Shown piece by piece: positions 9,293 to 22,808 of a stretch of 23,353 nucleotides of DNA (its first letter is position 1; each line of letters opens with the position of its first letter). The DNA comes from a virus, in IMG/VR virus record IMGVR_UViG_3300042197_003294, positions 1 to 23,353 of that record; one strand, given 5' to 3'. The notes beneath the pieces are model-generated. The model had not been told where the DNA came from, ran no database searches, and saw only the letters and a list, made by a program, of their open reading frames with translations. A program made the translations under genes and the position numbers.

Positions 9293-9475
9293 TCAGATGC
9301 GGAATCGCATCGTGGTCTGTTCCCAAGTAGCTGTCCTTGATCTGAACGATGCTGGTGTAGTCATGGGGATAGGAGTACCGTGTGCGGGAGTCGCCGCAGT
9401 GGGAGATACTATCTCAACACCAGGCTGTGGTTCAAATCTTATCTTAGACCAGCTCAATGGTTGTTTATCTGTCAC
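9293..9475 (-). CDS. Small hypothetical protein, GTG start
   Basis: A 60-residue protein, MTDKQPLSWSKIRFEPQPGV at the start, then a Pro/Thr/Ala-rich middle and a Thr/Arg-rich end. The start is a GTG at 9473-9475 with a strong AAAGGAGAG about 5 nt upstream, and it overlaps the preceding stop as GTGA. I recognise no domain. Three genes in a row here (62, 60 and 77 residues) are translationally coupled and probably made together. Confidence 0.6.
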   Translation of the reverse strand: MTDKQPLSWSKIRFEPQPGVEIVSPTAATPAHGTPIPMTTPASFRSRTATWEQTTMRFRI

Positions 9476-9660
9476 AGTCCTCTCCTTTGTAATTCAGCGC
9501 CTTTGTTGAAACTGGGGCTCCAGGAATTGGGCACCCGGCCGCCACGACGTATGCTCCATTCATAGCCAGCTCTGTGTCCCGAACAATCTTGGGTACACTG
9601 GCTGCCTTTGAATTGCAGCTCATTGACCTGCAGCCTCTTGACGAATTCTCGCGCTCTCAT
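9472..9660 (-). CDS. Small CTS-tagged Cys/Arg-rich internal-protein candidate
   Basis: A 62-residue protein. The start MRAREFVKRLQVNE resembles the T4 capsid-targeting peptide, with QVNE/L as a possible prohead-protease site. The rest contains C-TQD-C, then SGHRAGYEWSIRRGGR and SWSPSFNKGAEL, a basic module with two cysteines. The ATG at 9660 is part of an 18-bp block identical at two other gene starts in this window. It has no Shine-Dalgarno, but AATAAATA ends 5 nt before the ATG. A longer in-frame ORF exists, but it would lie inside the preceding gene. I infer a packaged DNA-associated or early-acting peptide. The function is unproven. Confidence 0.7.
   Translation of the reverse strand: MRAREFVKRLQVNELQFKGSQCTQDCSGHRAGYEWSIRRGGRVPNSWSPSFNKGAELQRRGL
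9643..9660 (-). repeat. 18-bp CTS-start DNA repeat, copy 1
   Basis: The plus strand reads gaattctcgcgctctcat. It encodes MRAREF from the ATG and is identical at 14666-14683 and 18971-18988. The same amino acids could be written many ways, so nucleotide identity suggests recent duplication or gene conversion of the gene start. Confidence 0.85.
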
Positions 9661-9664
9661 GTTG

Positions 9665-10273
9665 TTATTTATTCGTGATCCAGAAGCCCAATCTATCACC
9701 TGCGGCGCTGGGATACCATGATGTACCTGCGGGTTGTACCATGGGTTCATCGCGCCATTGCGGATAGATCTCATCGCTGTCATGATTGCGGAAGTCATCG
9801 TTGAATCGGGCATGCGCTTCTATCACCAATCCTCCCACGTATTCCACATTGATCCACTCCACGTCTTGGGCCACTGCATGTAATACTGGAGGCAAGGGAA
9901 CTTGGTCCTGTATCCTGCACCAGCGACTGAATCTATCCAGCCTATGGCTATTACGGAAACCTTCCACGGCCAGGTGTTGCTGTCCCCAATGATAGTCCAC
10001 TGAGATGTGACAGCCACGGAAGTAGCTCATCCAGAAGCTGCCATCGGGCACAGAGTCAGTGTCATCGGGCGTGAGCCAGCGACGTTCGGCACCACGCGCC
10101 ATCATGCGTATGTTGGTTATGGGTTTGATGATGTACCAGTTGGCTTCGGGCACCGGTACTCCCGCGGGACCAGCCTGATATCCCATGCGCCGTGTCAGGA
10201 TCAAACGATCATAGATCCACAGATGTTGAACAGGGACCGTGGCCCAGACATCTACATCACTGACAGTTTCCAC
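9665..10273 (-). CDS. Conserved-looking phage protein of unknown function (possibly ATP-grasp-like)
   Basis: About 202 residues if started at a GTG at 10273, 11 nt after the upstream stop. In-frame TTG/GTG codons at 10315 and 10312 overlap that gene and lack a Shine-Dalgarno, so the start is uncertain. Features are HLWIYDRLILTRRMGY, PEANWYIIKPITNIRMMARGA, SVDYHW, then a repeated beta pattern with VEWINVEYVGGLVIEAHARFN and a C-terminal RLGFWITNK. The order (WYIIKP, hydrophobic strands, then VEYVGG.VIE.H.R.N) is loosely like an ATP-grasp fold, with E and N in the metal-binding strand, but I would not assert it. No capsid-targeting start is visible. It sits between two CTS-tagged genes. Confidence 0.6.
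   Translation of the reverse strand: METVSDVDVWATVPVQHLWIYDRLILTRRMGYQAGPAGVPVPEANWYIIKPITNIRMMARGAERRWLTPDDTDSVPDGSFWMSYFRGCHISVDYHWGQQHLAVEGFRNSHRLDRFSRWCRIQDQVPLPPVLHAVAQDVEWINVEYVGGLVIEAHARFNDDFRNHDSDEIYPQWRDEPMVQPAGTSWYPSAAGDRLGFWITNK
9666..9673 (-). promoter_or_regulatory. AATAAATA, late-promoter-like octamer 5 nt before ATG
   Basis: The octamer differs from the T4 late promoter TATAAATA by one base and contains the TAA stop of the upstream gene. The 5-nt spacer would place a T4-type start site on the A of the ATG at 9660. Because it overlaps coding sequence, chance is possible. Confidence 0.35.
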
Positions 10274-10284
10274 GGTTTTGGTGG

Positions 10285-11124
10285 TTAGAGTTCGTTGGTG
10301 TTGTCGGGCCACCAATCAAACTTGGGCTCTAGACGATTGCGGTACAGCGCTTTGATGCGCCGATCATATTCTTGACTGCTGCCCTTGGCCCGACCTGACA
10401 CCACATCCATGACATAGTTCAAGGTCACGGCATTGGCACTGAGAGTGGCACAGCGTGCTGATACTTCATTTTTCAAAAGATCTATCAAGATGCTTTCAGA
10501 GCTTTCGGCCAAGACCCGGACGAGATTTTTGGGCACATGCAGATCCACGGTGCTGTAGACGAAATCATAGTGTGGGGCTGGACAACAATGTAGTATGTAT
10601 TCGTCTCGCACCACCACGCGTTTGAATCCATCGCGATTGTACCATGTGGCCTGGCTGCCAGTCTCTTCATCGGGCTGTCCCCAATGTCGGATCAAACTGC
10701 GAGCAAACTTCTGTGGTTCCGGGTTCTTCCAGTCTGCGATGCTGCCGCCACGGGCTTCAAATATGTCACGACTTTCTTTCCGAGTGGCTACATTTCTAGC
10801 AGCACCACGACGTTCGGGATCAGGATCTTGCCTGCGCTTGCGCGCTGCGGCCGATGCACGGCCTTTTTTGCCAAGGCTGTGTGCTTTGCTCTGTGGCAGG
10901 CACTTGGGTTTGCCTTCGCGCTCACTGCCGCGGGCACAAGGACCCATGATCTTGCCCTGTGGATTGAATCGCACCCATTTTTCACGGAACCACTTGCGGA
11001 GATCTTCCTCCATCTGCTGCTCGCTCACAGGCACGCAGTTGGGAACCATGCGGCTTCCCTTTTTCTTCATGCCAGCCTGGCGATACCCTGACCAGCAAGA
11101 CTCCAGTATCTCGCGGAATCTCAT
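10285..11124 (-). CDS. CTS-tagged multi-module Cys/Lys/Arg-rich protein
   Basis: A 279-residue protein. Residues 1-9 (MRFREILES) look like a capsid-targeting peptide with an ILE/S site. Residues 10-33 contain GYRQAGMKKKGSRMVPNCVP. Residues 50-115 form a strongly basic module: VRFNPQGKIMGPCARG, EGKPKCLPQSKA, then RASAAARKRRQDPDPERRG, which recurs in other phage proteins (I believe DUF6321-like). Residues 125-200 are a separate beta-rich module with HCCPAPHYDFVY. VLAE/S at 204-207 is a further candidate cleavage site, followed by a helical C-terminal module containing ARCATLSANAVTLNYVMDVV. The ATG at 11124 follows the upstream stop by 6 nt. I infer a packaged polyprotein whose basic parts may bind DNA. 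Confidence 0.75.
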   Translation of the reverse strand: MRFREILESCWSGYRQAGMKKKGSRMVPNCVPVSEQQMEEDLRKWFREKWVRFNPQGKIMGPCARGSEREGKPKCLPQSKAHSLGKKGRASAAARKRRQDPDPERRGAARNVATRKESRDIFEARGGSIADWKNPEPQKFARSLIRHWGQPDEETGSQATWYNRDGFKRVVVRDEYILHCCPAPHYDFVYSTVDLHVPKNLVRVLAESSESILIDLLKNEVSARCATLSANAVTLNYVMDVVSGRAKGSSQEYDRRIKALYRNRLEPKFDWWPDNTNEL

Positions 11125-11130
11125 GGCGGA

Positions 11131-11868
11131 TCAGCGTCCCGCGGCGCCGAGATTGGCGCCTGCGTTGCTGATGTTGACTCGCTGGTAGACTCCACTGCCT
11201 TGCTGACCTCTTTCGATTCTAGCGCCCCAGTTGTCTATACCACGCTGGTCCAAGAAGTTTTCTAACCAGCGGCTGGCTTCGCGAACATCGCGGAAGTTCT
11301 TGTTGGTGAGATCCATGATCTTGGTGTCACCGTCTATGGTGATGGTGGCAGTGATTTTGTTGGCATTGTCCTGAGCCGGGCCGGCAGCGCTGGCACCCCC
11401 ACTGAATGCCATGACACCGGCTGCGGCCAAGGCAGCCAGGGTCTCGCGCCAGCCTTCGTTGACTTGGCTTTTGTCGCCCCAGTTCTTGGCACCTTTTTTG
11501 CGACACTGTACCAAAGCACCCGAAGCATAGGCACTGGGCCATACTCGATAGCGGCTGCGCACTTTGTGATAGCAGGCATCTTTCTTGGCCTCGGCGATCT
11601 CGGATTCGGTCATGCCTCGACGCCGCATGAGATCATCGAGATCCTGTTGTATCTGCTGTATTTGTGCTTCGTCACTGTCTATCTCGTTGTCCAAGCGATT
11701 GATGTCCTGGCGATCCATGCGCTGCCCTGCGCGGAAATCATACAACAGGGCTTCAAGGTCGCTTTCGGCCTGCGGATAACGGGCGCGCAGTTGGCTCATT
11801 ATCCTCTGTGTGCGCGCGGTCTTGCGTAGGTTGGGTTCTCGGCGTTCAAATAGTTCTGTCAGCAACAT
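11131..11868 (-). CDS. CTS-tagged protein with coiled coil, Cys-basic module and latent hydrophobic helix
   Basis: A 245-residue protein. The start MLLTELFERRE resembles the N-terminus of T4 Alt (MELITELFDED as I recall it). Residues 30-95 are coiled coil. IAE/A at 91-93 precedes a basic module with DACYHKVRSRYRVWPSAYAS and LVQCRKKG (97-126). QVNE/GWRE at 135-141 is another candidate prohead-protease site. Cleavage there would expose GWRETLAALAAAGVMAFSGG ending ASA, which looks like a signal peptide or membrane helix. The remainder (170-235) is a small alpha/beta domain with ITATITIDGDTKIMDLTNKN. The ATG follows the upstream stop by 1 nt. The same exposed helix layout occurs in the GH19 lysin of this window. 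Confidence 0.75.
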   Translation of the reverse strand: MLLTELFERREPNLRKTARTQRIMSQLRARYPQAESDLEALLYDFRAGQRMDRQDINRLDNEIDSDEAQIQQIQQDLDDLMRRRGMTESEIAEAKKDACYHKVRSRYRVWPSAYASGALVQCRKKGAKNWGDKSQVNEGWRETLAALAAAGVMAFSGGASAAGPAQDNANKITATITIDGDTKIMDLTNKNFRDVREASRWLENFLDQRGIDNWGARIERGQQGSGVYQRVNISNAGANLGAAGR

Positions 11869-11869
11869 G

Positions 11870-14083
11870 TCAGGCCTCGTCTACGTAATCATCGCGGAGT
11901 TGTGTGGCTTGCCGGCGCCGAGCGCAGTACATCTCTGTAGCTATCTCGGCTTCGTCCAGGCTCTTGAATCGCTTGGGGATGGTGCGGTTGCGGATGCTGA
12001 TGCGGAAGCCATCGTCTTCGTTACCGTGTATGCGGATCTCATGTCCATCATCGGTTTTTATGGTGCGCACAGCCGGACCGATCTGATCCACGGCCTGGGG
12101 TATTTTTTTGATGAGATCGGGATCTTTACGAATGGCAGTGGCCACGTCCTGCAGATAGTCGCCCAGCTGCCGTTTCATAGTGGTGATGACATCTTCAGAC
12201 GTCATGCCCGCAGCCACTGATTCACGGAAAATACGCAGGCGTTCTTGTTCGATTACACTTTCATTGATGCCGGATGCGTTGATCCGGGCCTTGATACCAT
12301 ATCCACGGGATGTATCTACCAACTTCTTGGCCTGTGCCAAGGGTTTCACAGTGACCACTGCTCCGCCATGTTTCTGCACTTCGGCTATCTTGAGCTGGGC
12401 ACGCTCACTGCCACGCGGATATTCATTGGGCAACACTTCTTCTAACGCGTCCCAGGCATCTCGGGCCCAGTAATCTTTGCCTGGAACACCAAAAAATATC
12501 ACTTCCACCTGTTGATCGTTGTTGGCAGTGGGCGTGACCGTGGGCTGCGCTGCAACCGCGGTGCCCATGTCCGTGAGTTCGGCGATTGGCTGCGTGGACA
12601 ACTTGGTGGTGATTGTGACGGTGCGTTCCGGTGTGCGATTCTTGATGGTCTGGCCCGCGCGGCGTGCTGCTTCTCTGCCAGAAAATGTCACAGGTTCACC
12701 TTGCCGACGCCATACCTGGCCATCTATCACGATGTACCAAGTTCCCTGCATGATCTGGCGATAACGTTCCTCTTCACCGCCCAGTTCTGCTTCAATCTCG
12801 TCGCGTTTGAACTGACGGCGTTCAGCGTCCATGGCTCGCTGCTCTCTGCGCTCATCGTCTAAGGGATTCCAACCGCTTTCCGCCACACCTTGTCCACTGT
12901 ATTGCCGATAAAGGTCCACATAATGCTGGACTTCTTGTTCCCAGCCTCGGGGATCGCGGTTCTTGTACTGTAGGCCCAGCATCATGGCATAGGCTTCTGA
13001 GGCACTGAGCCATGAGCCGGGATCTTTATGATCGCCCATGCGAATCAACACCCTGCGTGTCTTTGGATCTAGTCGTTCCAAGCGGTAAGGATCTATACCT
13101 TCCGCCATGCCTTGCTGACCAATTTGACGATATTCAGTGGGCCAATCAAACACTATGCGATCGTATGCATCAAACACAGTGTCGAGGTAATCTCTCAATT
13201 CGTCAGGTATACGCTTTTTAGCCCATTCTGGGGGCATTTCAGAATCAATGCCCCGAACTTCGCCCCAATATATTTCCCAAACACGTGGAGTCCAGTAATC
13301 TAAAGCTTCGGTATCCAAGTCGCCTGCTCGCTGTAATGCCGGTGCAACAGACTTGTAGCCCTCTCTGTTGGCCCATTCGGCAAAAATTTTATGATACGGC
13401 TTGTTGTTTTTTACTGCCCATTGGTATAGATCTTTTACATCAGTTGGAGGCATTTGTGAATCAGGATACTTTGGTTCTCGCTGTATCTGACGCATCATGG
13501 TGTCAAATTTTTCATCTCCGGTGGCTTCCGCCACGCCTTGCTTTTTATCTTGTTGAGCCACCCAGGTGGCCAGCTTGCTCTTGAGACCGCTGCTGTGATG
13601 CTTGGGCGGGTTATGTGTATCTATCACGTCTATGTTGCGCTGGCTCAATGGTCCCCCGGCCTGATAAGCCGCAGGACTAGCTATCTGTCTGCGTCCGGGT
13701 TCGTTGGCCAAGGTGCTGGACTGGCTCGGAGAAGATAGTATCCGGTCCAGGTTCAGCTGCTGTGCTATCTTGGGATCGACCCATTGGAATTCCACGAACG
13801 AAGGTACGGAATCGTAACCTCCGCTGGCTCGATAATCAGCCTTTACGTAGCGTCCATCGCCCATGCGGAAATATGTGGTGCGAGGAGCCATGATATCCAG
13901 TTCATTCACGATGCCTTCCGCCATGTCTTGGTCTTCGCCCACGAGATAACCACGCGTGGCGTTGCGCCCGGCATAAGGACCGTTGAGTTGTGGCGATGTC
14001 TGTGGTGGATCAAAGTCTGCCGGCAGCTGACCCACCGCACGTTGCTGGCTGCTGATGTTTTCAGTGATGTTGCGTATCTTCAT
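11870..14083 (-). CDS. Large CTS-tagged modular polyprotein with four internal xAE sites
   Basis: A 737-residue protein from an ATG at 14083 (ATGA overlap with dps; AAGAA-type Shine-Dalgarno). The frame is open 120 nt further upstream, but that overlaps dps. Residues 1-9 (MKIRNITEN) look CTS-like. DMAE/G (53-57), QGVAE/A (182-187), QGMAE/G (324-329) and QGVAE/S (398-403) divide it into segments of about 55, 130, 142, 74 and 335 residues. PIAE (499-502) and KIAE may be further sites. Segment 187-328 is AT-rich relative to its flanks. The end carries DGHEIRIHGNEDDGFRISIR and FKSLDEAEIATEMYCARRR, a module pattern I have seen in other phage proteins. No enzymatic motif is recognised. I infer capsid cargo diced at assembly. 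Confidence 0.8.
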   Translation of the reverse strand: MKIRNITENISSQQRAVGQLPADFDPPQTSPQLNGPYAGRNATRGYLVGEDQDMAEGIVNELDIMAPRTTYFRMGDGRYVKADYRASGGYDSVPSFVEFQWVDPKIAQQLNLDRILSSPSQSSTLANEPGRRQIASPAAYQAGGPLSQRNIDVIDTHNPPKHHSSGLKSKLATWVAQQDKKQGVAEATGDEKFDTMMRQIQREPKYPDSQMPPTDVKDLYQWAVKNNKPYHKIFAEWANREGYKSVAPALQRAGDLDTEALDYWTPRVWEIYWGEVRGIDSEMPPEWAKKRIPDELRDYLDTVFDAYDRIVFDWPTEYRQIGQQGMAEGIDPYRLERLDPKTRRVLIRMGDHKDPGSWLSASEAYAMMLGLQYKNRDPRGWEQEVQHYVDLYRQYSGQGVAESGWNPLDDERREQRAMDAERRQFKRDEIEAELGGEEERYRQIMQGTWYIVIDGQVWRRQGEPVTFSGREAARRAGQTIKNRTPERTVTITTKLSTQPIAELTDMGTAVAAQPTVTPTANNDQQVEVIFFGVPGKDYWARDAWDALEEVLPNEYPRGSERAQLKIAEVQKHGGAVVTVKPLAQAKKLVDTSRGYGIKARINASGINESVIEQERLRIFRESVAAGMTSEDVITTMKRQLGDYLQDVATAIRKDPDLIKKIPQAVDQIGPAVRTIKTDDGHEIRIHGNEDDGFRISIRNRTIPKRFKSLDEAEIATEMYCARRRQATQLRDDYVDEA
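12878..12892 (-). repeat. 15-bp GVAE-coding repeat
   Basis: The plus strand reads ttccgccacaccttg. It encodes QGVAE at residues 398-402 of the 737-residue protein and is identical to the copy at 17660-17674 in a different gene. Confidence 0.85.
13100..13114 (-). repeat. 15-bp GMAE-coding repeat
   Basis: The plus strand reads ttccgccatgccttg, encoding QGMAE. It marks one edge of the AT-rich segment 13115-13525. Confidence 0.85.
13526..13540 (-). repeat. 15-bp GVAE-coding repeat
   Basis: The plus strand reads ttccgccacgccttg, encoding QGVAE. It marks the other edge of the AT-rich segment 13115-13525. Confidence 0.85.
13916..13930 (-). repeat. 15-bp DMAE-coding repeat, diverged
   Basis: The plus strand reads ttccgccatgtcttg, encoding QDMAE near the N-terminus of the 737-residue protein. 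It differs from the 13100 copy at one base. Confidence 0.75.
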
Positions 14084-14520
14084 GCTCGTTCTTCTTTCAA
14101 GAAACTGCGCAGCATCCAGCGATGTTTGCCCTGGGCATCGATGCGCCCGGCCACGAAATCCGCGATGCCCTGTTGATTCTCTGCTTCGGCCGCGGCAAAG
14201 CACTGATTGAGATGATCTATCAGCGTCTGGCAGTCGGCCAAGAGCTCCTGTATCATGAGCCGTGCGCGCGGCACTTTGGTCTGTCCCGGCACCAGGCTCA
14301 GCTCGGCGAAACGTTCGAAGCTGCCTGGCGTGTAGTCATCCAGGATGCGTATGAATTCTGCTGTGGGGTCAATGGCATCGTATACTTCTTCATAGATCTT
14401 ACCAAAGAATTTGTGCAGTTGCGCGAAGTCTGGGCCCTCGCAATTCCAGTGGAAAAACTGTGATTTGATCACGAACGCATACTGCGAGGCCAACAATACT
14501 TTGAGATCATCTACTAACAT
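14080..14520 (-). CDS. dps: Dps-like ferritin (DNA-binding/ferroxidase)
   Basis: A 146-residue Dps-family protein. These form 12-mers that oxidise Fe(II) with peroxide and protect DNA. The ferroxidase residues keep canonical spacing: H24 in FHWNCEGP, H36 in QLHKFF, D51 and E55 in DPTAEFIR, the same 12-15-4 spacing as in bacterial Dps. The C-terminal helix has ADFVAGRIDAQGKHRWMLRSFL, the usual family end. There is no capsid-targeting start and no long basic N-terminal tail. The ATG lies 14 nt inside the preceding 58-residue gene, and its stop overlaps the large polyprotein as ATGA. I infer protection of phage DNA, or of the cell during takeover, from oxidative damage. Length fits a complete gene. 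Confidence 0.9.
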   Translation of the reverse strand: MLVDDLKVLLASQYAFVIKSQFFHWNCEGPDFAQLHKFFGKIYEEVYDAIDPTAEFIRILDDYTPGSFERFAELSLVPGQTKVPRARLMIQELLADCQTLIDHLNQCFAAAEAENQQGIADFVAGRIDAQGKHRWMLRSFLKEERA

Positions 14521-14683
14521 GGCGTGGCTTTCTCTTGTTCAAGGGCTTGATGCCGTTAGCGTATTTAGTGGTGTTGGGCTGTGTTGATCGTGATATGATG
14601 CTGCCCAAGGGCTGACTCACAGTGGCGATGCTGCCCGACACAGTGGCACCCGTGTCTTCGCGGATGAATTCTCGCGCTCTCAT
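14507..14683 (-). CDS. 58-aa CTS peptide with short basic tail
   Basis: A 58-residue protein that begins MRAREFIREDTGATVSGSIA, continues through TVSQPLGSIISRSTQ and ends NGIKPLNKRKPRHVSR. The first nine residues look like a T4-type capsid-targeting peptide with an IRE/D cleavage site. What remains is about 49 residues, Ser/Thr-rich and then strongly basic. The size and layout are like a T4 internal protein reduced to its minimum. GGAG lies about 10 nt before the ATG. The ATG block is one of three identical 18-bp repeats. The stop is 14 nt inside dps, so the two are likely coupled. Confidence 0.7.
   Translation of the reverse strand: MRAREFIREDTGATVSGSIATVSQPLGSIISRSTQPNTTKYANGIKPLNKRKPRHVSR
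14666..14683 (-). repeat. 18-bp CTS-start DNA repeat, copy 2
   Basis: Identical to 9643-9660 and 18971-18988. It encodes MRAREF of the 58-residue protein. Confidence 0.85.
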
Positions 14684-14967
14684 GTCATGATCTCCAAGTG
14701 CTGAGAATCTATCCAGCGTGCCGGGCCATGTGTCACGACATGATCAGACACCGTGAAACGAGCGAGATTCTTGCCTACTGGCACTATTTTCACGGGATAT
14801 ATCCCGGGTTCGAGGTCTAGTTGCAATATCTCTTCCAGGCTAGAATTATTCCAGCGCCACTCTCGTTCGGTGAGCAGATCATCGCGGACGTAGAGTCGAT
14901 ACACAGGCGGTATACCTTCCCATTCACAGTCAAGCCTGAATCCGGCGAGGATAAACTCATGGCGCAT
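14680..14967 (-). CDS. Conserved-looking small phage protein, beta-rich
   Basis: A 95-residue protein starting MRHEFILAGFRLDCEWEGIPP, then a beta-rich body (VYRLYVRDDLLTEREW, ILQLDLEPGIYPVKIVPVG) and the end HVVTHGPARWIDSQHLEIMT. The pattern is like small hypothetical proteins of T4-like phages. I know no function. MRHEF could be a weak CTS-like start, but no cleavage site follows. Its stop overlaps the start of the 58-residue gene (ATGACATG). It has no Shine-Dalgarno. GATAAATA ends 4 nt before the ATG. Confidence 0.7.
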   Translation of the reverse strand: MRHEFILAGFRLDCEWEGIPPVYRLYVRDDLLTEREWRWNNSSLEEILQLDLEPGIYPVKIVPVGKNLARFTVSDHVVTHGPARWIDSQHLEIMT

Positions 14968-14971
14968 CCCA

Positions 14972-14979
14972 TATTTATC
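14972..14979 (-). promoter_or_regulatory. GATAAATA, late-promoter-like octamer 4 nt before ATG
   Basis: One mismatch to TATAAATA. It contains the TAA stop of the upstream 63-residue gene. A T4-type start site would fall within one base of the ATG at 14967. Confidence 0.35.
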
Positions 14980-15166
14980 GGGATTTCAATTCACGGGGAT
15001 TGCCCACTATGATATCGTTTTTATTGTATTGGGCGCGCAGTATCTTGCGAGCCTGATCGGGATTACGCGCCTGCAGCGTGGTATTGATGATCTGGGTATA
15101 GCCGGGCTGCCGTAGTTTCAGCTTGACGAGATAGGTCTTGAGCCGCGAAAATTCTTTTAGACGCAT
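14975..15166 (-). CDS. Small basic phage protein with CTS-like start
   Basis: A 63-residue basic protein, starting MRLKEFSRLKTYLVKLKLRQ, then TTLQARNPDQARKILRAQY and ending NPRELKSR. MRLKEF resembles the other capsid-targeting starts, but no [ILVM]xE follows closely, so processing is doubtful. The ARNPDQARKILRAQY core is a helix pattern I associate with small proteins of T4-like phages. It is the first gene of the leftward unit beginning at the 29-nt divergent gap. An exact TATAAATA ends 4 nt before its ATG. Confidence 0.7.
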   Translation of the reverse strand: MRLKEFSRLKTYLVKLKLRQPGYTQIINTTLQARNPDQARKILRAQYNKNDIIVGNPRELKSR

Positions 15167-15170
15167 GCTT

Positions 15171-15178
15171 TATTTATA
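15171..15178 (-). promoter_or_regulatory. TATAAATA, exact T4 late promoter octamer
   Basis: An exact match to the T4 late promoter on the minus strand, in the 29-nt gap between divergent genes. T4 late transcripts begin about 6 nt after the octamer, which here is the start codon at 15166, so the mRNA would be leaderless or begin inside ATG. This is the best-placed promoter in the window. Confidence 0.55.
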
Positions 15179-15203
15179 TTTTATATCGGTCGGCCATGAC
15201 CGC

Positions 15204-15211
15204 AGTAAATA
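15204..15211 (+). promoter_or_regulatory. AGTAAATA, late-promoter-like octamer 5 nt before ATG
   Basis: Two mismatches to TATAAATA, on the plus strand. The spacer of 5 nt would put the start site on the A of the ATG at 15217. Confidence 0.3.
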
Positions 15212-15216
15212 TATCA

Positions 15217-15759
15217 ATGAACACTACATCACATCCATCATTGCCCGTCATCACCTGCGATCAGGTCTTGGAATCTCCGGCGCACAAAACACTGCTGGAA
15301 GAACTCAGCCAGCAGAATCTAGACATGTATCAGGCCTATCCCAATAGGATCTTTACCCGACCCCATTATCAGACCTGGCTGCAGGGATATTTCCAACAGC
15401 TGATCGACTGGACTGTGACCAAACACTCCTTGTCGGGAGAAATACAGCAAGTTTTCTATTCCGTGGAATTACCAGGCTGCAACTTCATGTATCATCGTAG
15501 CCATCCCAACATCGGTGCGGTCATACACTGGAGTCCCGAAGACTTCCCCGGTCCCGGAATCCGGATGTTGGAACAAGGTCTTGATGATTCTGATGATTAT
15601 CTCTGGAGCGACAAAGGTCGTTCAGGGCCCGTGTTTCCGTTCTTGGCGAACCAGGCCATAGTGGTGGTGAATCAAGAGCCACGGCACCACTGGGGATTCC
15701 AGTCTCCCATAGGCGAATCTCGCGCCAAGCGCAGCGTCTGGATCTATTTGGGAAAGTAA
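15217..15759 (+). CDS. Putative 2OG-Fe(II) oxygenase/cupin-like protein
   Basis: The only plus-strand gene, 180 residues from the ATG at 15217. An in-frame ATG at 15196 would add 7 residues, and neither has a Shine-Dalgarno. I chose 15217 because an AGTAAATA octamer lies 5 nt before it. The core pattern is NFMYHRSHPNIGAVIHWSPEDF (90-110), then FPFLANQAIVVVNQEPRHHWGFQSP and a closing KRSVWIYLGK. This is a double-stranded beta-helix layout with candidate metal ligands H93 or H96 and H157 or H158, and R169/R172 as 2OG-binding candidates. The canonical HxD is absent. It ends tail to tail with the next gene, overlapping it by 16 nt. Oxygenase activity is a guess from fold pattern and neighbour. 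Confidence 0.65.
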   Translation: MNTTSHPSLPVITCDQVLESPAHKTLLEELSQQNLDMYQAYPNRIFTRPHYQTWLQGYFQQLIDWTVTKHSLSGEIQQVFYSVELPGCNFMYHRSHPNIGAVIHWSPEDFPGPGIRMLEQGLDDSDDYLWSDKGRSGPVFPFLANQAIVVVNQEPRHHWGFQSPIGESRAKRSVWIYLGK

Positions 15760-16265: not shown

Positions 16266-16270
16266 ACGGA

Positions 16271-16278
16271 TATTTACT
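16271..16278 (-). promoter_or_regulatory. AGTAAATA, late-promoter-like octamer 5 nt before ATG
   Basis: Two mismatches to TATAAATA, in the 80-nt gap before the dioxygenase. A T4-type start would fall on the A of the ATG at 16265. The rest of the gap (16279-16345) holds only weak 5-bp inverted repeats. Confidence 0.35.
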
Positions 16279-16345
16279 GCCGTGCCAGCGATAGATTATT
16301 TTTACGACCAGCGTTGTTGGGTTTAACAATCTTCTATAGTAAGAT

Positions 16346-17476
16346 CTAACTGCTCCATTTCAGGCTCCAGCCCGCCCCGAACGGATCCACTATCACCATG
16401 GTGCCGTCCCGGCGTTCGCGCACGTTGAAGCCGGCCAGATCCCAGGCCAGTCCTTGCTCCGCGCCCCACTGCCGCAGCTGGCTCGCGATGTTGTAGAAGC
16501 CCGGCATCTGTGCGCGGTACTGCTGCATGAGATTGTCCATCAACAAGTTCCACCGGCTGTCTTGCCGCGCATGGCGCAGGAAATCCTGCCAGGTCGGGAA
16601 ATGGTGCCACACGCCCTGATTCAGCAGCTGGCTCAGGAATTCCCGCACCGCGGTGGGCAGTTCCACCAGGGCTTCCATGCTGAGCTGCAGGAACTCGCTC
16701 TTACCTATCTGTATCTTGCGGTAGGGCTGGCCGTTGATGGTGCCAAATCTCAGCATGTGGGGATTGTTGCTGTGCTCTTGTGCCCACTGCCGATAGGCCA
16801 AGATGGCGCGATTGCCGGCCGCCTGCCGGCTACGTCCTTGGTTGGGCATGGGCATCACGATCTTGACCACGGTGCCTTCGTTCTTGCCCCACACTATGCT
16901 GTCCACGCCTTCGCCCCAGAACGCATATCCGGCCGCACGCATGCGCTGGCGCATCTCCTGCGCGTCCGGACTGCTGCTGGCCATCTCGCGCAGGTCGCGC
17001 AGCCAGGCAGCGTCATCCTGCTGCCAACGATCCTGTGCTTCAGCCACTTCCAGGGCTTGGTCGATCTGCGATGACGGAAGTCCAAACGCCCGATAACCTC
17101 GCCGCAGCGTGGCCACGTAGCCCTGAGAAGGCGCGCGCCAGGTGGTGTTGTCTCGCGTGTCCGGGGTCATGCGATACACCCAGGCCTCGACCCTGCGTGA
17201 CTGATGCTGAACCGGCAACTGCTGCCGGCCATACATGTGGGGATAACCTTCCACGCGGTCCAGTTCGCTCAAGAGTTCTCGCGGTATAATCCACAGCGCG
17301 CCCCACACCTGCGACCCGGCATCGGGCGTTACGTCGGCATACTGCAGAAACTCGAACCTGTGGTTGTTGAGCAGGGCGGGCCCCACGGCCCTGGCCCCGG
17401 GCATGTGCTCCTGATCGGTCAGCATGCCGTAAGCGAAGTAGTATATGGGTTCGGGGCGGAAGTCTCGGTATCTCAT
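16346..17476 (-). CDS. Gamma-glutamylcyclotransferase-like domain fused to kinase-fold domain
   Basis: A 376-residue fusion. Residues 11-105 look like the GGCT/AIG2 fold: YYFAYGMLTD at 12-21 (the family YGSN-type loop), VWGALWII at 58-64, and LDRVEGYPHMY at 72-82 with E76 as the likely catalytic Glu. The middle (GYVATLRRGYRAFGLP) and EVAE/A at 143-147 may be a processing point. Residues 182-376 look like a protein-kinase/aminoglycoside-kinase fold: AGYAFWGEGVDSIVW (G-loop), VVKI with K205, LSMEAL, WDLAGFNV with D346 and N351 (catalytic loop) and VIVDPF with D364 (DFG-like). The start MRYRDF is CTS-like. Its kinase part is paralogous to the 215-residue protein at 20383-21030. Substrates are unknown. 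Confidence 0.72.
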   Translation of the reverse strand: MRYRDFRPEPIYYFAYGMLTDQEHMPGARAVGPALLNNHRFEFLQYADVTPDAGSQVWGALWIIPRELLSELDRVEGYPHMYGRQQLPVQHQSRRVEAWVYRMTPDTRDNTTWRAPSQGYVATLRRGYRAFGLPSSQIDQALEVAEAQDRWQQDDAAWLRDLREMASSSPDAQEMRQRMRAAGYAFWGEGVDSIVWGKNEGTVVKIVMPMPNQGRSRQAAGNRAILAYRQWAQEHSNNPHMLRFGTINGQPYRKIQIGKSEFLQLSMEALVELPTAVREFLSQLLNQGVWHHFPTWQDFLRHARQDSRWNLLMDNLMQQYRAQMPGFYNIASQLRQWGAEQGLAWDLAGFNVRERRDGTMVIVDPFGAGWSLKWSS

Positions 17477-17479
17477 GTT

Positions 17480-18988
17480 TTAGCGATTTTTCTTCCGGCC
17501 GCTCTTCATGTTGGCGCACCAGTGATACATACGACCGCGTTCGCCACCATACTTTTGGGCCCGGGCGCGTAGGTCTGTCACAGATCCCGAGCAACTGGCA
17601 CCACTGCGTTTCACACGTCCGGGCCTGCTCTTACCTTTGACCTTACCATCCGCGAAATTTTCCGCCACACCTTGTTGTTTTCGTGTGAATTTGTATGTCA
17701 TTGACCCCATTGGAGTCCGTCCCTGATGTATCATATATCCTAAACTACCGGCATATCTTTGTACCAATCTATCATACAATTTTTCTCTACTGCCTTTGGG
17801 ATCATCTTCTTTTACTGCTGAGAAAAATAAACTAACAGGTTTTTTCTTTTCGATAAATTGTGCGATGGCTGTTAATACAGTAGCAAATACTCGTTGGGAA
17901 TCACCTTCGCCAGTCACTTCTTGGCGGTTGTTCCTATAGAATTCTACCATCCAATTGTTTTTGGACTCCTTGTTAAACATTATGCTTAAATAGGTGCCAT
18001 CGTCTAATGCTGCCAATGCGTCATAATCTCCATGCATTGATCGTGTCCACTTAATCCTGTAGGGTTGGTCCAGGCTTTCCGCCACACCCCCCGCTGAACC
18101 ATCTATCGAAAAATATTCTCTGCCCATGATGGCGCTGGGTGGTATGGCGCCGCTGTAGATGTAAGTTTCTTCACCGGTGTCATCGTTTCTCAGCCAATGC
18201 GAATCTGCTGACAGCAGACGCCGATCTAGCTTGTTCTGATCGATCTTGAATATCACGCCGCCTTGTTTCATCAGTTCCAATATCTGTTGCTCGCGCTCGG
18301 CGTTGGGTTCTATCACACTGGGATCGATGAAACTACTGGCGATGTCCGGATAGTTGCTGAGATACACATAGCGGTGATCGCTCCAGTCAAACATCCTGAG
18401 ATTACCGCCGGGCAGCAGCCCGTGTTTCCGTATGCTGGGTTCGAATGCTTTCAAGGTGGCATGATATAATGGTTCACGATCAAACCCCGGACTTTCTGCC
18501 ATGGCACGTGCGCCCAGGTCGCCATAGCGACGCAGCGTGATCTTCAGGGCTTCCATGACCTCGTCGCTGTAGCGGATCAGCCGGGGATCTACCACACGCA
18601 CTGGCGCCTGCCGCACGCCGGTCTGCAGCAGGGCAGCATAGCGATGGTGCCCGTCTATGATGCGATAGCCACCGCGCACGGGAGTGACCAGCAGGGGCGG
18701 AATTTTATCCCCTTGCTGCAAGGCTTGCCGCAGGCTGGCCACGGTTCTCTGGCTGGGCAGGTCTCGCATCTTGGTCATGGGTTCCCAGGGCCGCAGTTGC
18801 TCCACCGGCACCATCCGCAAGGGAAAATCCTGGATGCGCATGCCCCGACCGGTGTTGGTGACGGCACCTTGGTTCCGCGGATTGGTCATCATGACTATGG
18901 GCGCGTCACGGTCGCTGCGGTTTATGACATTGCGCCCCCAGTTCACGATGTCGCGCAAACCTTCCTGCGTGAATTCTCGCGCTCTCAT
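17480..18988 (-). CDS. CTS-tagged polyprotein: ParB-like, ADP-ribosyltransferase-like, AT-rich module, Cys-basic tail
   Basis: A 502-residue multidomain protein. MRAREFTQE/G is a capsid-targeting peptide with processing site. Residues 59-135 are ParB/Srx-like (VPVEQLRPW, IIDGHHRYAALLQTG with GHHR at 113-116). AMAE/S at 162-166 ends it. Residues 167-300 look like an ADP-ribosyltransferase of the KptA/DarT type: LYHATLKAF with H176, KHGLLPGG, YVYLSNYPDIASSF, VIFKID, then ETYIYSGAIPPSAI. GVAE/S at 301-305 ends it. Residues 305-443 are an unidentified, AT-rich module (LFFSAVKEDDP, SREKLYDRLVQRYA). QGVAE/N at 439-444 precedes a basic tail, SGASCSGSVTDLRARAQKYG, with MYHWCANMKSGRKK. T4 packages the ADP-ribosyltransferase Alt in a similar way. 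Confidence 0.78.
   Translation of the reverse strand: MRAREFTQEGLRDIVNWGRNVINRSDRDAPIVMMTNPRNQGAVTNTGRGMRIQDFPLRMVPVEQLRPWEPMTKMRDLPSQRTVASLRQALQQGDKIPPLLVTPVRGGYRIIDGHHRYAALLQTGVRQAPVRVVDPRLIRYSDEVMEALKITLRRYGDLGARAMAESPGFDREPLYHATLKAFEPSIRKHGLLPGGNLRMFDWSDHRYVYLSNYPDIASSFIDPSVIEPNAEREQQILELMKQGGVIFKIDQNKLDRRLLSADSHWLRNDDTGEETYIYSGAIPPSAIMGREYFSIDGSAGGVAESLDQPYRIKWTRSMHGDYDALAALDDGTYLSIMFNKESKNNWMVEFYRNNRQEVTGEGDSQRVFATVLTAIAQFIEKKKPVSLFFSAVKEDDPKGSREKLYDRLVQRYAGSLGYMIHQGRTPMGSMTYKFTRKQQGVAENFADGKVKGKSRPGRVKRSGASCSGSVTDLRARAQKYGGERGRMYHWCANMKSGRKKNR
17660..17674 (-). repeat. 15-bp GVAE-coding repeat
   Basis: The plus strand reads ttccgccacaccttg, identical to 12878-12892 in another gene. 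It encodes QGVAE at 439-443 and marks one edge of the AT-rich module. Confidence 0.85.
18077..18088 (-). repeat. 12-bp GVAE-coding repeat
   Basis: The plus strand reads ttccgccacacc, encoding GVAE at 301-304 and marking the other edge of the AT-rich module. The Gln codon half of the 15-bp repeat is not kept. Confidence 0.8.
18971..18988 (-). repeat. 18-bp CTS-start DNA repeat, copy 3
   Basis: Identical to 9643-9660 and 14666-14683. It encodes MRAREF of the ParB/ART polyprotein. Confidence 0.85.
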
Positions 18989-20379
18989 GTGCGCATTTCT
19001 CGGTCACGCATGATCTGATAGTAGTCCATGAATTTTTGTTCGCGATCTCTCAGGCCACGCAAGGCAGGATTTATGCCGCGCGTGACAGATGCCACATCAT
19101 AGAAATCCCTCACCAGGGGTCGCACTCGTTGTTTCCAGTACCAGGCCGCGATCTCGGCCGCCACGTCGGGTCGGCTGGCCAGGTCTGGATTACGTTCGAG
19201 ATCCAGTCCCAGCGCCCGCCCGGCCTGGCGATAATTGTCGCGCCCGGTGAGTTGTATGTATCCACGACCGCGATATCGCCAACCATCACCCGAAGCTTCA
19301 TTGCCGTTACCCAGGCGGTTAGCATAGGCGCGATTGGCTATGGCCTTTGGTCTGTTGGCATACTGGCTGGCGATGCGGGCCGAGGAGAAAGCCGTGGGAA
19401 ATGTCTTCATGAGATTGGGCGCTGAATAATAGAGATTCTCTCGCATGCTGGTGAAGTCTTGGCTCTCATGAGCGGCCTGTGCCAGCAGCGCCGCCAGCTC
19501 TGCTACACGAGTGATGCCGGCTCGCATGGCGGTTTTCAGCATGCGCCGTTCGTCGGGTCCGGCGTTGGGCAAGGGTAGATCTTTGGCGCGAGCGGGTGGG
19601 TCGGCTGCCCGGGATTTCTCGGGTTCTGTGATCCTGGGTTGCGACGCATCAGAGGATGCGGGTTTGGTTTGTGTTCCTGCTGCTGGTGTGGGTTTTGGTT
19701 TGTCTGCTGGTGCGGATCTGGCCGGAACGGCCCGGTCAGTGTAGCCCAGGCGAGCCAGCTCGTCCCTGCGCTGTGCATCCAACACATTGCGCTCGCCGGG
19801 TATGCGCAGCTTCTGTCCCGGGGTGATGGTGAAATTGCGATCCAGGCCATTGGCCCTGGCTATCACCTCGGGCGTGGTGTTGTTGGCACGGGCGATGCTG
19901 TACACAGTGTCACCCTGTTTTACGGTGTGCGCACCTGCGCCCAAGGCGAGACTACCCAGGGCCAGACCCGCGGCAGTGTCGCGCCAGCCTTCTTCCAAAG
20001 ATCCAAGATCAGTGCCCGGCACATGTAACACATTGTCGGCGATGGCTGGCAGTCTTGCAAACACAGTGCCCACAAAATACTGCTTGCTCTGCCGATCCAT
20101 GACTCGCAAGCCCACGGCTTTGTTGAGCTTGGGGTCATACAGCCAGAACTTCTCGCCTCGAGTGAACTCCAACATCCGCCGTCGCACCATGGGCAACTGT
20201 TTAAGGATAGCGTCGCGTTCTTGATCCGACACACCGCGCTCTATCTGCCGCAGGTAACGATGGTAATCACGCCCTGGAGGATCTTGTGGATCGGGATCTT
20301 CAAAATGCAGCGTGATGTCGCCGATGCCCCAGGTGCGCCTGCGTTCTGTGATAGGTTCAGAGAATTCCTGGGCTCGCAT
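18985..20379 (-). CDS. CTS-tagged LysM + GH19 lysin
   Basis: A 464-residue peptidoglycan hydrolase. Residues 1-12 (MRAQEFSEPITE) are CTS-like with an ITE site. A unique module follows at 20-120. LEE/GWRDT at 128-135 is an LxE cleavage site whose product would start with a hydrophobic Gly/Ala helix (133-150). Residues 150-195 are a LysM domain: HTVKQGDTVYSIARANN to ITPGQKLRIPG. A Pro/Ala/Lys linker spans 220-270. Residues 280-464 are a GH19 chitinase/lysozyme-type domain with AHES (E305 the probable acid), ENLYYSA, RAYANRLGNG and GWRYRGRGYIQLTGR. Its start overlaps nothing upstream (3-nt gap) and its stop overlaps the polyprotein as ATGA. It could be an endolysin, but the N-terminal tag argues for a virion-carried lysin. 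Confidence 0.85.
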   Translation of the reverse strand: MRAQEFSEPITERRRTWGIGDITLHFEDPDPQDPPGRDYHRYLRQIERGVSDQERDAILKQLPMVRRRMLEFTRGEKFWLYDPKLNKAVGLRVMDRQSKQYFVGTVFARLPAIADNVLHVPGTDLGSLEEGWRDTAAGLALGSLALGAGAHTVKQGDTVYSIARANNTTPEVIARANGLDRNFTITPGQKLRIPGERNVLDAQRRDELARLGYTDRAVPARSAPADKPKPTPAAGTQTKPASSDASQPRITEPEKSRAADPPARAKDLPLPNAGPDERRMLKTAMRAGITRVAELAALLAQAAHESQDFTSMRENLYYSAPNLMKTFPTAFSSARIASQYANRPKAIANRAYANRLGNGNEASGDGWRYRGRGYIQLTGRDNYRQAGRALGLDLERNPDLASRPDVAAEIAAWYWKQRVRPLVRDFYDVASVTRGINPALRGLRDREQKFMDYYQIMRDREMRT

Positions 20380-20382
20380 GCG

Positions 20383-21030
20383 CTATCCCCAGCTGATCCA
20401 GGGATCGATTATGACGTAGGTGCCGTCCCCACGCCGCATGACATTGCCACCGTGCAGATCCCAGTCGTAATCCCAGTTTGTTTTGCGGTGGGCCGCTCGC
20501 ATGGCTTTCCACAGGCTGGACAACTGCCAGCGGTTTTCATTGATCCATTCTTGGGGGTCATCTCCCCAGCCTGTGAGACCATCCATGAAATACTCGAGGT
20601 CACTGCCGTCGGCCACGGCTTCGGACATGAGCTCGATCATTTCTTGTTCGTCGGCCATGAGCGGTTCCAGGCGCTCCATGGATATCTGCATATAGTTTCG
20701 GTCGCCCACGCGGAACTTGGCGAACACGCTCTCGCGGCCCTGTTCATCCCGCTCTGTATAGTACCGGGGCCAGTGCGGGCTGGGATGGCTCTGCGTGAGT
20801 TTCAGGAACCGCTGGAAGGTGGCCATGGCCACGCCGGTGTCGCCGCGCCAGGAATCCGGCATGATGATCTTGATCACGCGTGGCAGGCTGGGGTGGCTCC
20901 AGGCCGTGGCTTCCGCTCCACCACCCAAGAAGCCATATCCGGCCCGGCGCATCACCTGATCGATCTTGCTGGATCGGGCCGTGCCTGTCTCATACTCCGG
21001 TATGAGTGTCTGGAATTCTTGAAATCGCAT
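20383..21030 (-). CDS. CTS-tagged kinase-fold protein
   Basis: A 215-residue protein. MRFQEFQTLIPE/Y is CTS-like with an IPE site. The rest matches a small kinase/phosphotransferase fold: RRAGYGFLGGGAEATAW (glycine loop, 29-44), VIKIIMP with K54, QISMERL with E119, WDYDWDLHGGNVMRR with D191, H193 and N196 (catalytic loop) and VIIDPW with D209 (metal-binding Asp). It shares the order AGYxFxGxG, VxKIxMP, SME, WDLxGxNV, IxDP with the C-terminal half of the GGCT fusion at 16346-17476, so they are paralogs. The peptide or small-molecule substrate is unknown. The key catalytic residues appear intact. It sits between the lysin and the small membrane protein. Confidence 0.72.
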   Translation of the reverse strand: MRFQEFQTLIPEYETGTARSSKIDQVMRRAGYGFLGGGAEATAWSHPSLPRVIKIIMPDSWRGDTGVAMATFQRFLKLTQSHPSPHWPRYYTERDEQGRESVFAKFRVGDRNYMQISMERLEPLMADEQEMIELMSEAVADGSDLEYFMDGLTGWGDDPQEWINENRWQLSSLWKAMRAAHRKTNWDYDWDLHGGNVMRRGDGTYVIIDPWISWG

Positions 21031-21033
21031 CAG

Positions 21034-21297
21034 TTACTTATCCGGGTGCAGCGTGGGTTGGCGTCGCGGCTCGGCAGCGCTGTTGGTGTGGCCGTTACCG
21101 TTGCCGTAGCGCATGCTCAGGAACTTCTTGGCCACTTCCGAGCCGCCCACGGTGGCTACGTACACCAGCAGCAGTTCCCAGTTTGTGGCATTGGCGTTGG
21201 TTATGACCACGTAGGTGGCCGTGGCATAGGCCACGTTGGTCCAGAACTTTGAGGCCGAGAACTTACCGTGTGGATCTTGGAACAGCGGGCTGTTCAT
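21034..21297 (-). CDS. Small membrane protein, possible holin
   Basis: An 87-residue protein with MNSPLFQDPHGKFSASKFW at the start, two short hydrophobic segments (about 20-34, VAYATATYVVIT, and 42-55, LLLVYVATVGG), then VAKKFLSMRYG and a polar, basic tail. Size, two membrane segments and a charged end fit a holin, and the GH19 lysin is two genes downstream. However, proteins of this pattern in T4-like phages are usually left unnamed, and a structural or membrane-anchoring role is equally possible. The start overlaps the upstream stop as ATGA; a 3-nt gap separates it from the kinase-like gene. Confidence 0.65.
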   Translation of the reverse strand: MNSPLFQDPHGKFSASKFWTNVAYATATYVVITNANATNWELLLVYVATVGGSEVAKKFLSMRYGNGNGHTNSAAEPRRQPTLHPDK

Positions 21298-22808
21298 TGG
21301 CGTCTCCTGCGACCCAGGGTTTTTTCTTCGGGCTCAGCGCTGATGGGTTCTCTGCGGGCTCGGATGCTGCTGCGTGGTATTTCAAAATCAGAACCCCGGG
21401 CCTGTGCGGTGGTTTTCTTTGTGGGTTCTCCCGGCACCGGTCCGGGATCGGGGTCCGGCGCGCCAGCGGGCTGCAGCTTGAAACTGAAACCACCCTTGGT
21501 GGGATCGGTACCACCGCTCTTGCTTTCCATGGTGACTTTGCCATCCAGCTTGGCTGGCCACTGGGTGCTGAACGCCAACACGTTCTTCTGTGCCTTGGCA
21601 TATTGTTGTATGAAGTTGTAGTCCAAGATCTCCAGTATCACTTCCTGGAACTCCGGCACAGCGCCACCATTCACCATCTCCATCACGGCCTTTTTCACCA
21701 CATACGTGAGCTTGCCGCCGTCACTGCCGCGGCTTTCCAGTCCAGACCACAGGGACTCATACTCAGGCATAGGAGTGTCGTTCTTGAGGCTGTCGCGCAC
21801 CGCAGCCACGATATCCTCGGGCCAAGGCAGGAATTTTTTGAATTTTTTAGGCACGCGGTCGGGCAGCCGCTGATCGAATAGGTTCATCATGAGGAACACC
21901 TGACTCACGGTCTTGGGAGATGGAATGTTTTCGTTCTGCGTGAGTTCTATGAGATCTATGGCCACGTCGTAGTTTTTCTTGGCCTTGACGTGGTCCGGTA
22001 TCTTGAGACCACTGAGGCTGGGTGGCGCGCCACCTCCGGTGCCCTTGCTGGAGATGTTGATGGTGTGTCCGGTCTTGGCGTTGCGGATTTCGGCATAGCT
22101 GTCGGCCAGCTGGTTGCTGGGATCACTGGGAAAGTTCAGCACCAGGCTTTTCATGCTTCCTCCCAGCCAGTCCAGGAATCCCTGTCGCTTGCTGGCTCCG
22201 CCTAGCCACTGAGTGGTATCGTATATGAGAGCCAACACGCCGAGATACTCTCCAGCATAGTCTACTATGGCTTTCTTGATCTGCTCGTTTTTCACGAACT
22301 CATCGGGTATAATAGCGGGTTCGCCGCGCGTGATCTGTTGCGCCATGGCTATGATAGCTCGACCGTAGTCAGTGCTTTGCAGCACTGGGTTGTTCGTGAT
22401 CACACCGGCGAGCTTGGAGGCTGGTATGTCCTGATCCGTGATGCCGATTTGCGTGGGCTTGACCTGCGCGCCTTCTTTCTTGAGGCTGGCAGTGTCCGCT
22501 TCGCCGGGTTTGGCTGACGCTCCGCCAAACTCGGCGGTTTTACGGAACTGGCTCAAGGGCCATTCCCGACCGTCAAGATCGCGGCCTTTCAGCGCGCCGC
22601 GGAATTTACCCTGTGCTCGTAATTGTAAAAAACGCTGGGCTTCGCGTGGATCCAGTGTAACTGGGGTGCCTTCTCGTTCGGTGTAGAAAGGAAGGCGCTC
22701 CTGGATGTGCGATATGAACGCATCAAATCGCTCGGGGTATTTGATAATGGTACCAGCATCCAATGTGGCTTCGGCCAATGAATCTAATCGGTCTAATAAG
22801 TCTCTCAC
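21294..22808 (-). CDS. CTS-like tagged large phage protein of unknown function
   Basis: A 504-residue protein from a GTG at 22806-22808, one base overlapping the upstream TAG, with GGAG upstream. A longer GTG frame from 22868 lies within the neighbour and is less likely. The start MRDLLDRLDSLAE/A resembles the Alt-type CTS with an LAE/A site. Next come YPERFDAFISHIQ and LDPREAQRFLQL, then GREWPLSQFRKTAEFGG. The middle (DSYAEIRNAKTGHTINISSK, then GTGGGAPPSLSGL) has a D/E...SSK pattern that could be a PD-(D/E)xK-like nuclease core, but this is weak. The C-terminal 80 residues are Pro/Gly-rich, ending EKTLGRRRRQ. The function is unknown. It is the longest of the single-copy-tag proteins. Confidence 0.72.
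   Translation of the reverse strand: MRDLLDRLDSLAEATLDAGTIIKYPERFDAFISHIQERLPFYTEREGTPVTLDPREAQRFLQLRAQGKFRGALKGRDLDGREWPLSQFRKTAEFGGASAKPGEADTASLKKEGAQVKPTQIGITDQDIPASKLAGVITNNPVLQSTDYGRAIIAMAQQITRGEPAIIPDEFVKNEQIKKAIVDYAGEYLGVLALIYDTTQWLGGASKRQGFLDWLGGSMKSLVLNFPSDPSNQLADSYAEIRNAKTGHTINISSKGTGGGAPPSLSGLKIPDHVKAKKNYDVAIDLIELTQNENIPSPKTVSQVFLMMNLFDQRLPDRVPKKFKKFLPWPEDIVAAVRDSLKNDTPMPEYESLWSGLESRGSDGGKLTYVVKKAVMEMVNGGAVPEFQEVILEILDYNFIQQYAKAQKNVLAFSTQWPAKLDGKVTMESKSGGTDPTKGGFSFKLQPAGAPDPDPGPVPGEPTKKTTAQARGSDFEIPRSSIRARREPISAEPEEKTLGRRRRQ

Follow-up and report, generated by a model that had tools for sequence, protein, structure and literature searches.

The T4 internal proteins (IPs) IPI-III and Alt carry capsid targeting sequences (CTSs) that are cut by the protease gp21, which cleaves after L/I-x-E (PMC9026906). 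For targeting, ten residues of IPIII are enough; its residues 4 and 7 serve targeting, and residues 8 and 10 serve processing (PMC9026906). In phiKZ-like phages and SPN3US, many head proteins are cut after xxE by the gp21-related gp175/gp245 and head proteins are injected, while the T4 core proteins gp22, gp67 and gp68 are cut into fragments by gp21 (PMC9026906). Polyvalent proteins of phages and conjugative elements are believed to enter together with the DNA and to be processed by their own zincin-like peptidase (PMC5512222). Here we describe IMG/VR virus record IMGVR_UViG_3300042197_003294, analyzed over its full 23,353 bases (the window), a piece of a larger phage whose genes carry short CTS-like N-terminal tags and, in two cases, internal QG[V/M]AE linkers encoded by a 15-nucleotide word. 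We consider it probable that these features define a T4-like system of internal-head cargo, in which polyproteins are cleaved and the word serves as an exchange junction.

As in the T4 IPs and Alt, the window proteins combine a short leader, K or R at position 2, a hydrophobic-x-Glu site and diverse cargo for each leader type, and a gp21-type protease and gp23 occur, here in related phages. Unlike the T4 IPs, many more proteins are tagged in the window phage, internal cut-like sites chain modules together, and the linker, whose DNA sequence is itself conserved, serves for swapping modules. The propeptide-bearing head proteins of phiKZ-like phages and SPN3US are cut after xxE, as proposed here, but are not reported as shuffled chains with a standard linker (PMC9026906). 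The fragments of T4 gp22, gp67 and gp68 mostly leave the head, whereas the pieces here would be folded modules with effector-like domains. Like polyvalent proteins, the chains hold several effector-like modules each (ART, ParB and others; the protein at 17480-18988 has a ParB-like module and further ones). Unlike them, they come with no zincin-like peptidase, Pfam scans of the window polyproteins and nine other multi-linker proteins having detected no peptidase family, and their boundaries, which have one DNA word in common, fit the sites of a prohead protease. The packaging route is apparently a variant of the T4 internal-protein system, and the DNA-level junction apparently has no precedent that we could find. 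Our literature searches found no phage paper mentioning GVAEG, gave mostly alpha-synuclein papers among the QGVAE matches listed, and found nothing on prohead-protease cargo polyproteins.

All N-termini listed in a preliminary description of the window were found on the minus strand, at plausible starts and within a tight operon; almost all window genes lie on that strand. Starts of the form M[RK]xx[EDQN][FILMV] open 9 of the 27 window genes, or 10 if MRAREFVKRLQVNE at 9472-9660 is counted, compared with 33 of 5575 internal methionines in the same and related genomes (0.6%; p=4e-14). Across whole related genomes the pattern occurs in 2-4% of genes, so the tagged genes are clustered in the window. 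An [ILVM]-x-E site within 15 residues, which had been claimed for most tags, is present in 8 of the 11 named starts, and the tag was also found beyond the window, with 104 distinct MRAxE[FI]xxE starts among the related loci fetched. The tagged proteins had been called unrelated, which does not hold for those at 10285-11124 and 11131-11868 (both PHROG 727) and, by eye, those at 16346-17476 and 20383-21030, which have a kinase-like stretch in common. Leaders are interchangeable among unrelated cargo, in that the same module is found behind different leaders.

We built a leader profile from 30 leaders of related contigs, selected without applying the tag pattern: the module following each leader occurs elsewhere directly after an internal [QKEG]G[VMIL]AE, and the leader ends in Glu at that point. 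The profile comprised the last six leader residues, slightly favoured K/R at position 2 and was run on 454 T4 open reading frames (ORFs). It ranked IPIII first and IPII second (both MKTYQEFIAE), Alt (MELITELF) fifth and gp68 eleventh. The likeness to T4 drawn in the preliminary description, and its prediction that a profile of these N-termini should match the T4 IPs, were thus borne out. IPI (MKTFKEFTSTTTPVSTITE) ranked 32nd because its cut site is more distant from the start, a trait of several window tags too. In the annotated T4 record AF158101, the leaders of IPIII and IPI were confirmed. Scores of the window leaders ranged from about 0.5 to 10.0, some of them matching poorly. A 58-codon ORF (58 aa) at about 18966-19142 of AF158101, starting MKTFKEFIKE, ranked third and is a candidate for an extra CTS-bearing T4 protein.

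The closest cultivated relatives of the window family-B DNA polymerase are those of Sinorhizobium phage Phosso (49%) and Agrobacterium phage Atu_ph07 (45%), with 41-42% to the Rak2/GAP32/121Q group. All of these are large T4-like phages, and the clade of the window phage is T4-like as judged from its gp23 and DNA polymerase sequences. In Atu_ph07, the tag form opens 19 of the 467 genes called, compared with 1 of 1602 internal methionines; 13 of these genes are found between 32 and 50.6 kb, within the cluster of coding sequences (CDS) 31-76. This cluster includes an array tagged MRWxQLTE, CDS 53-62 being MRWxQL[TN]E proteins, and 29 virion proteins detected by mass spectrometry are reported at the level of the cluster (PMC6102473). 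At 39484-49507 of the Atu_ph07 record (MF403008.1), ten consecutive genes with M[RK]WxxL[TNI]E-like starts form a tandem array of tagged paralogs, several of which share an LYRGM stretch that is ART-like by eye.

If the tags reflected chance or a shared preference at translation starts, and not targeting, their presence in a few percent of the relatives' genes genome-wide would be expected, and MKLSEL-type starts can indeed be family features. The start MKLSEF of the methyltransferase gene at 3749-4684 may be a tag but is more likely a family start, since similar sequences in our control list mostly start MKLSEL. The enrichment in the window, the retrieval of the T4 IPs and Alt by the profile, and the Atu_ph07 tags, clustered in a region positive by mass spectrometry, make this explanation barely credible.

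The tags make up only half of a modular system. The other half, and the larger feature, consists of the internal QG[V/M]AE linkers, which the preliminary description had missed and without which its reading is incomplete. Words resembling CAAGGTGTGGCGGAA occur six times in the window against 0.64 expected (none of 100 shuffles reached six), and all six copies lie on the minus strand, in frame, confined to two genes (Table 1). Proteins of related phages carry up to eight linkers with a median spacing of 75 residues, and a few hundred contigs yielded 311 internal modules in 237 families.

Relatives of the two C-terminal modules of the 17480-18988 protein were fetched by homology, and distinct contexts were counted. 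The residue before the module was Glu in 97 of 97 contexts for the module that follows the QGVAE at 17660..17674 and in 31 of 31 for the other. Both boundary Glu residues were invariant in a 15-sequence alignment, while the rest of the linker varied (QGVAE, PPVAE, SSIEE, EGMAE, KPVDE, LQTNE and others). The 645 linker copies have Glu at P1 in 636 cases and V, M or L at P3 in 644. The same modules follow N-terminal leaders: the NFADGKVKGKSRPGR module lies behind QGVAE in the window, MRAHEFVDE in locus L377 and MRIFEITE in locus L004; the xWSxKYKxSIxCxxPKG module lies behind KKGVAE, QGVAE, MKLSEIIIE, MKANEFITE or MRAQEFITE; and DWQKVNK lies behind QGVAE, MRADEIINE or, as DWNKVN, MRIHELLSE. A module related to the 9472..9660 protein comes after KQGVAE in L240, and a start similar to that of the 21294..22808 protein, MRDLLSKLDAIVSE, opens a QGVAE-bearing protein in L180. 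Module alignment placed 57 short leaders, of which 36 have a terminal Glu exactly at the boundary. The modules at aa 187-328 and 329-402 of the 11870..14083 protein recur in other phages (L630-L633, L242) with 41-97% identity and unrelated neighbours. Because Glu is invariant before the modules and the same modules follow Glu-ending leaders, tag and linker appear to be cleavage sites of one kind; judged from these alignments, a Glu-fixed boundary is the pattern of a protease site.

The SLDQPYRIKW module, the penultimate one of the 17480-18988 protein, occurs in T4-like Vibrio phages: in Vibrio phage D479 in three adjacent proteins with CTS-like starts (MEFRTFLTE/A, MNDFKQFMVE/A and MKTLQTYMVE/A, the slash marking the boundary) and in Vibrio phage nt-1 (Straboviridae) behind an internal NLTE/A. 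In BFVD, its model matched Alt of phage phiAS5 as well as Atu_ph07 proteins of 278 and 778 aa, which are the lengths of the Atu_ph07 genes tagged MRWNDLLE and MKWNDLNE, respectively. By sequence, no solved structure was found for this module, and Foldseek against the PDB gave weak GNAT-like matches (best E 1e-3).

An AlphaFold model built from the 15-sequence alignment had a predicted local distance difference test (pLDDT) value <50 at residues 1-9 and 145-160, which hold the two linkers, and >80 across most of the module between them. Such low-confidence, flexible stretches would suit a plain interdomain linker produced by domain fusion, in chains that bear real tags but act uncut. A plain linker, however, has no need for Glu in 97 of 97 and 31 of 31 contexts with a mostly hydrophobic P3, nor would it be expected to fall exactly where N-terminal leaders end or to consist of a single DNA word; we therefore judge this explanation unlikely.

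The gp21-like protease sought on the suggestion of the preliminary description was found in related phages. Peptidase S77 (gp21-type) and gp23 occurred together in 6 of the first 12 long related records, and of 17 long linker-bearing records, 10 yielded S77 and 12 gp23. The xxE form of the sites and the presence of gp23 point to a gp21-type enzyme as the likely protease. The gp23 N-termini of this clade contain repeated LLE, ILE and LKE sites and end in E/NASxGSTxSGNIATLNRV. After its own site, the 14507..14683 protein resembles this gp23 N-terminal arm (xLKE/NAS..GSTVSGNIATLNRV), and a gp23-like arm also follows the Glu in several dozen similar starts of other phages. This shared arm suggests that, as regards cleavage, the tagged small proteins are treated in the same way as gp23. 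The gp22-like N-terminus of the clade, MFDAIKPLLES..LINE, is akin to the Alt-like leader class.

We then considered the linker as DNA, counting distinct contexts among the matches listed and fetched from IMG/VR. The exact word CAAGGTGTGGCGGAA was present in 129 of 190 distinct QGVAE contexts, against 0.7% expected from the codon use of the same genes, and in 75 of 112 when one fixed structural protein family was left out. That family, an 805-aa protein (MAKIIKKGIFPSQAV...) seen in L188, L191, L205 and about ten further loci, carries KQQGVAESKVQIA at one fixed place; it was set aside as not being cargo and is probably structural and outside the linker system. The N-terminal tags, unlike the linker, show ordinary codon variation. 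Among copies with up to two mismatches, the Q-G-V-A-E frame was the longest ORF in 645 and not in 2. In IMG/VR, GAGCAAGGTGTGGCGGAAGG alone gave many matches (at least those listed), compared with about 0.1 expected by chance for a 20-mer by a rough estimate, and codon-degenerate KQQGVAE also matched (at least the matches listed). No convincing match to the word was obtained in 50,697 cultivated phage records. A host origin was rejected: across 257 Gb of bacterial and archaeal genome sequence, a degenerate 19-mer matched 34 times, about as often as expected by chance and within ordinary genes.

The word is an exchange point for modules between phages. Among 311 exact contexts, 93 pairs share only the 5' flank, 89 share only the 3' flank and 2 share both, and a few bases from the word identity has already dropped from about 0.86 to 0.27. 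The opposite picture came from control 15-mers of these loci, with 34,052 pairs alike in both flanks and 1,791 in one. Of the 5' groups with several members, 40 of 41 had at least two different 3' partners, and the 3' groups behaved likewise. Assembly chimeras at the repeat appear unlikely, given that usual assembly k-mers are longer than the word and that the flanks which contexts share have diverged to about 80-86% identity.

Rickettsia palindromic elements and other in-frame intragenic repeats place a short conserved DNA word in many unrelated ORFs. The QGVAE word resembles them in this respect, and a selfish or mobile intragenic element that inserts in frame and has no role in cleavage would account both for DNA conservation far above codon preference and for the hundreds of unrelated contexts. 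Such an element should, however, have homologous flanks on both sides, which the word, unlike these repeats, does not: with 2 two-flank against 182 one-flank pairs, simple insertion is ruled out. Moreover, the best-kept residues are the P1 Glu and the hydrophobic P3, and many homologous boundaries retain the Glu without the word. We regard a selfish element as very unlikely.

A more serious competitor concerns the DNA-level part only, namely that the identity of the word reflects recent ancestry and fast turnover, with ordinary homologous recombination at a fortuitous repeat. T4-like phages recombine readily, and the word does change, at 8.5% synonymous change compared with 23% in the flanks of diverged homologous pairs. 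On the other side, the word is unchanged beside flanks that are about 80-86% identical (a comparison conditional on the exact word), the exact word also prevails without that condition (75 of 112), and the equally widespread N-terminal tags vary normally in their codons. We rate this alternative as possible, though the less favoured. We lean towards a dual role in these uncultivated large T4-like phages, in which the 15-nucleotide word would be a prohead-protease site as protein and a fixed domain-exchange junction as DNA. If so, new injected polyproteins could be built from a shared pool of hundreds of modules with frame and processing kept.

In the process that we propose, a leader of about 8-19 residues, of the MRAxEF[IV]xE or the Alt/scaffold-like form, would let the protein dock into the core of the prohead, and cleavage after the leader Glu would be carried out by the gp21-type protease of the phage. 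The internal QG[V/M]AE linkers would be further cut sites in the two cargo polyproteins, so that one polypeptide would yield several small mature proteins, kept in the head and then injected. The linker, kept as one 15-nucleotide word in one frame, would be the standard junction through which modules are exchanged, presumably by recombination.

Several observations weigh against this proposal. MRYRDFRPEP (16346-17476) and MRLKEFSRLK (14975-15166) have no [ILVM]-x-E site; in MRAREFTQE (17480-18988), P3 is Thr, a departure from the strict form. Of the 57 placed leaders, 21 lack a terminal Glu, some through alignment slippage or a wrong start. P3 of the linker is V or M, compared with L/I-x-E as the main T4 rule, and Alt, IPI and gp22 score below IPII and IPIII in the profile. 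The window itself, a 23-kb fragment, holds no protease gene, and 7 of the 17 long motif-bearing records gave no S77 match, including the 262-kb record G011; other records without an S77 or gp23 match are partial. Finally, 27 of 34 chance matches to the word in bacterial genomes also fell in frame 0, so the reading-frame bias is partly intrinsic. G011, which contains locus L184, has QGVAE linkers and gave neither a gp23 nor an S77 match; it is either a partial record or one with a divergent capsid.

If the proposal is correct, the tags and linkers provide a sequence-readable list of the proteins, mostly of unassigned function, that environmental phages carry into cells. The T4 anti-restriction factor IPI is an injected protein, and since T4 injected proteins include it, such a list would offer a route to counter-defence and takeover proteins. 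The system would also be a natural case of proteins built from modules through one standard junction, which serves as a joint in the DNA and, apparently, as a cut site in the protein. The features of the window are collected in Table 1.

Table 1. Tagged genes and linker sites of the window, in order of position; a slash marks the boundary at which cleavage would occur.
Feature	Coordinates	Strand	Leader, start or word	Remarks
Methyltransferase (Pfam)	3749..4684	-	MKLSEFLQQKINIQE	MKLSEF fits tag pattern
62-aa tagged Cys-module protein	9472..9660	-	MRAREFVKRLQVNE/LQFKGSQCTQDCSGHRAGY	
Tagged basic Cys-module protein	10285..11124	-	MRFREILE/S	PHROG 727
Tagged basic Cys-module protein	11131..11868	-	MLLTELFE/RREP	PHROG 727; Alt-like leader
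Cargo polyprotein	11870..14083	-	MKIRNITE/	DMAE, QGVAE, QGMAE and QGVAE between modules
Linker QGVAE	12878..12892	-	exact CAAGGTGTGGCGGAA	in 11870..14083
Linker QGMAE	13100..13114	-	CAAGGCATGGCGGAA	in 11870..14083
Linker QGVAE	13526..13540	-	CAAGGCGTGGCGGAA	in 11870..14083
Linker-like site QDMAE	13916..13930	-	CAAGACATGGCGGAA	3 mismatches; in 11870..14083
58-aa tagged protein	14507..14683	-	MRAREFIRE/DTGATVSGSIATVSQPLG	leader score 9.8
Small tagged protein	14975..15166	-	MRLKEFSRLK	no xxE site
Tagged gamma-glutamylcyclotransferase-like protein	16346..17476	-	MRYRDFRPEP	Pfam GGACT 4e-15; no clear xxE site
Cargo polyprotein	17480..18988	-	MRAREFTQE/	ParB-like module, AMAE/ (aa 162-165), ART-like stretch, GGVAE/, SLDQPYRIKW module (GNAT-like model), QGVAE/, basic Cys module NFADGKVKGKSRPGR
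Linker QGVAE	17660..17674	-	exact CAAGGTGTGGCGGAA	aa 439-443 of 17480-18988 protein
Linker GGVAE	18077..18091	-	GGGGGTGTGGCGGAA	3 mismatches; aa 300-304 of 17480-18988 protein
Tagged LysM-GH19 lysin	18985..20379	-	MRAQEFSEPITE/R	Pfam LysM 4e-15, GH19 8e-11; profile score 10.0
Tagged kinase-like cargo	20383..21030	-	MRFQEFQTLIPE/Y	PHROG 15752 protein kinase 1e-9
Tagged protein	21294..22808	-	MRDLLDRLDSLAE/ATL	scaffold/Alt-like class; GTG start; low profile score 0.45

PHROG 727 is a basic Cys-rich module, and its two window proteins are possibly DNA-binding core proteins; the one at 11131-11868 has matches in 365 phage records, nearly all of them cyanophages. In this protein and in the lysin at 18985-20379, E-G-W-R-[DE]-T precedes a hydrophobic stretch rich in Ala, Leu and Gly (VNEGWRETLAALAAAG and LEEGWRDTAAGLALGS); the two may have a further module in common, bounded by an xxE site of its own. 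An untagged Ferritin/Dps-like protein is encoded at 14080-14520, within the run of tagged genes. At 7678-8958, the window encodes an S-adenosylhomocysteine hydrolase (Pfam 2e-126), and the same operon contains a methyltransferase and a radical-SAM gene, which suggests phage methylation-related metabolism.

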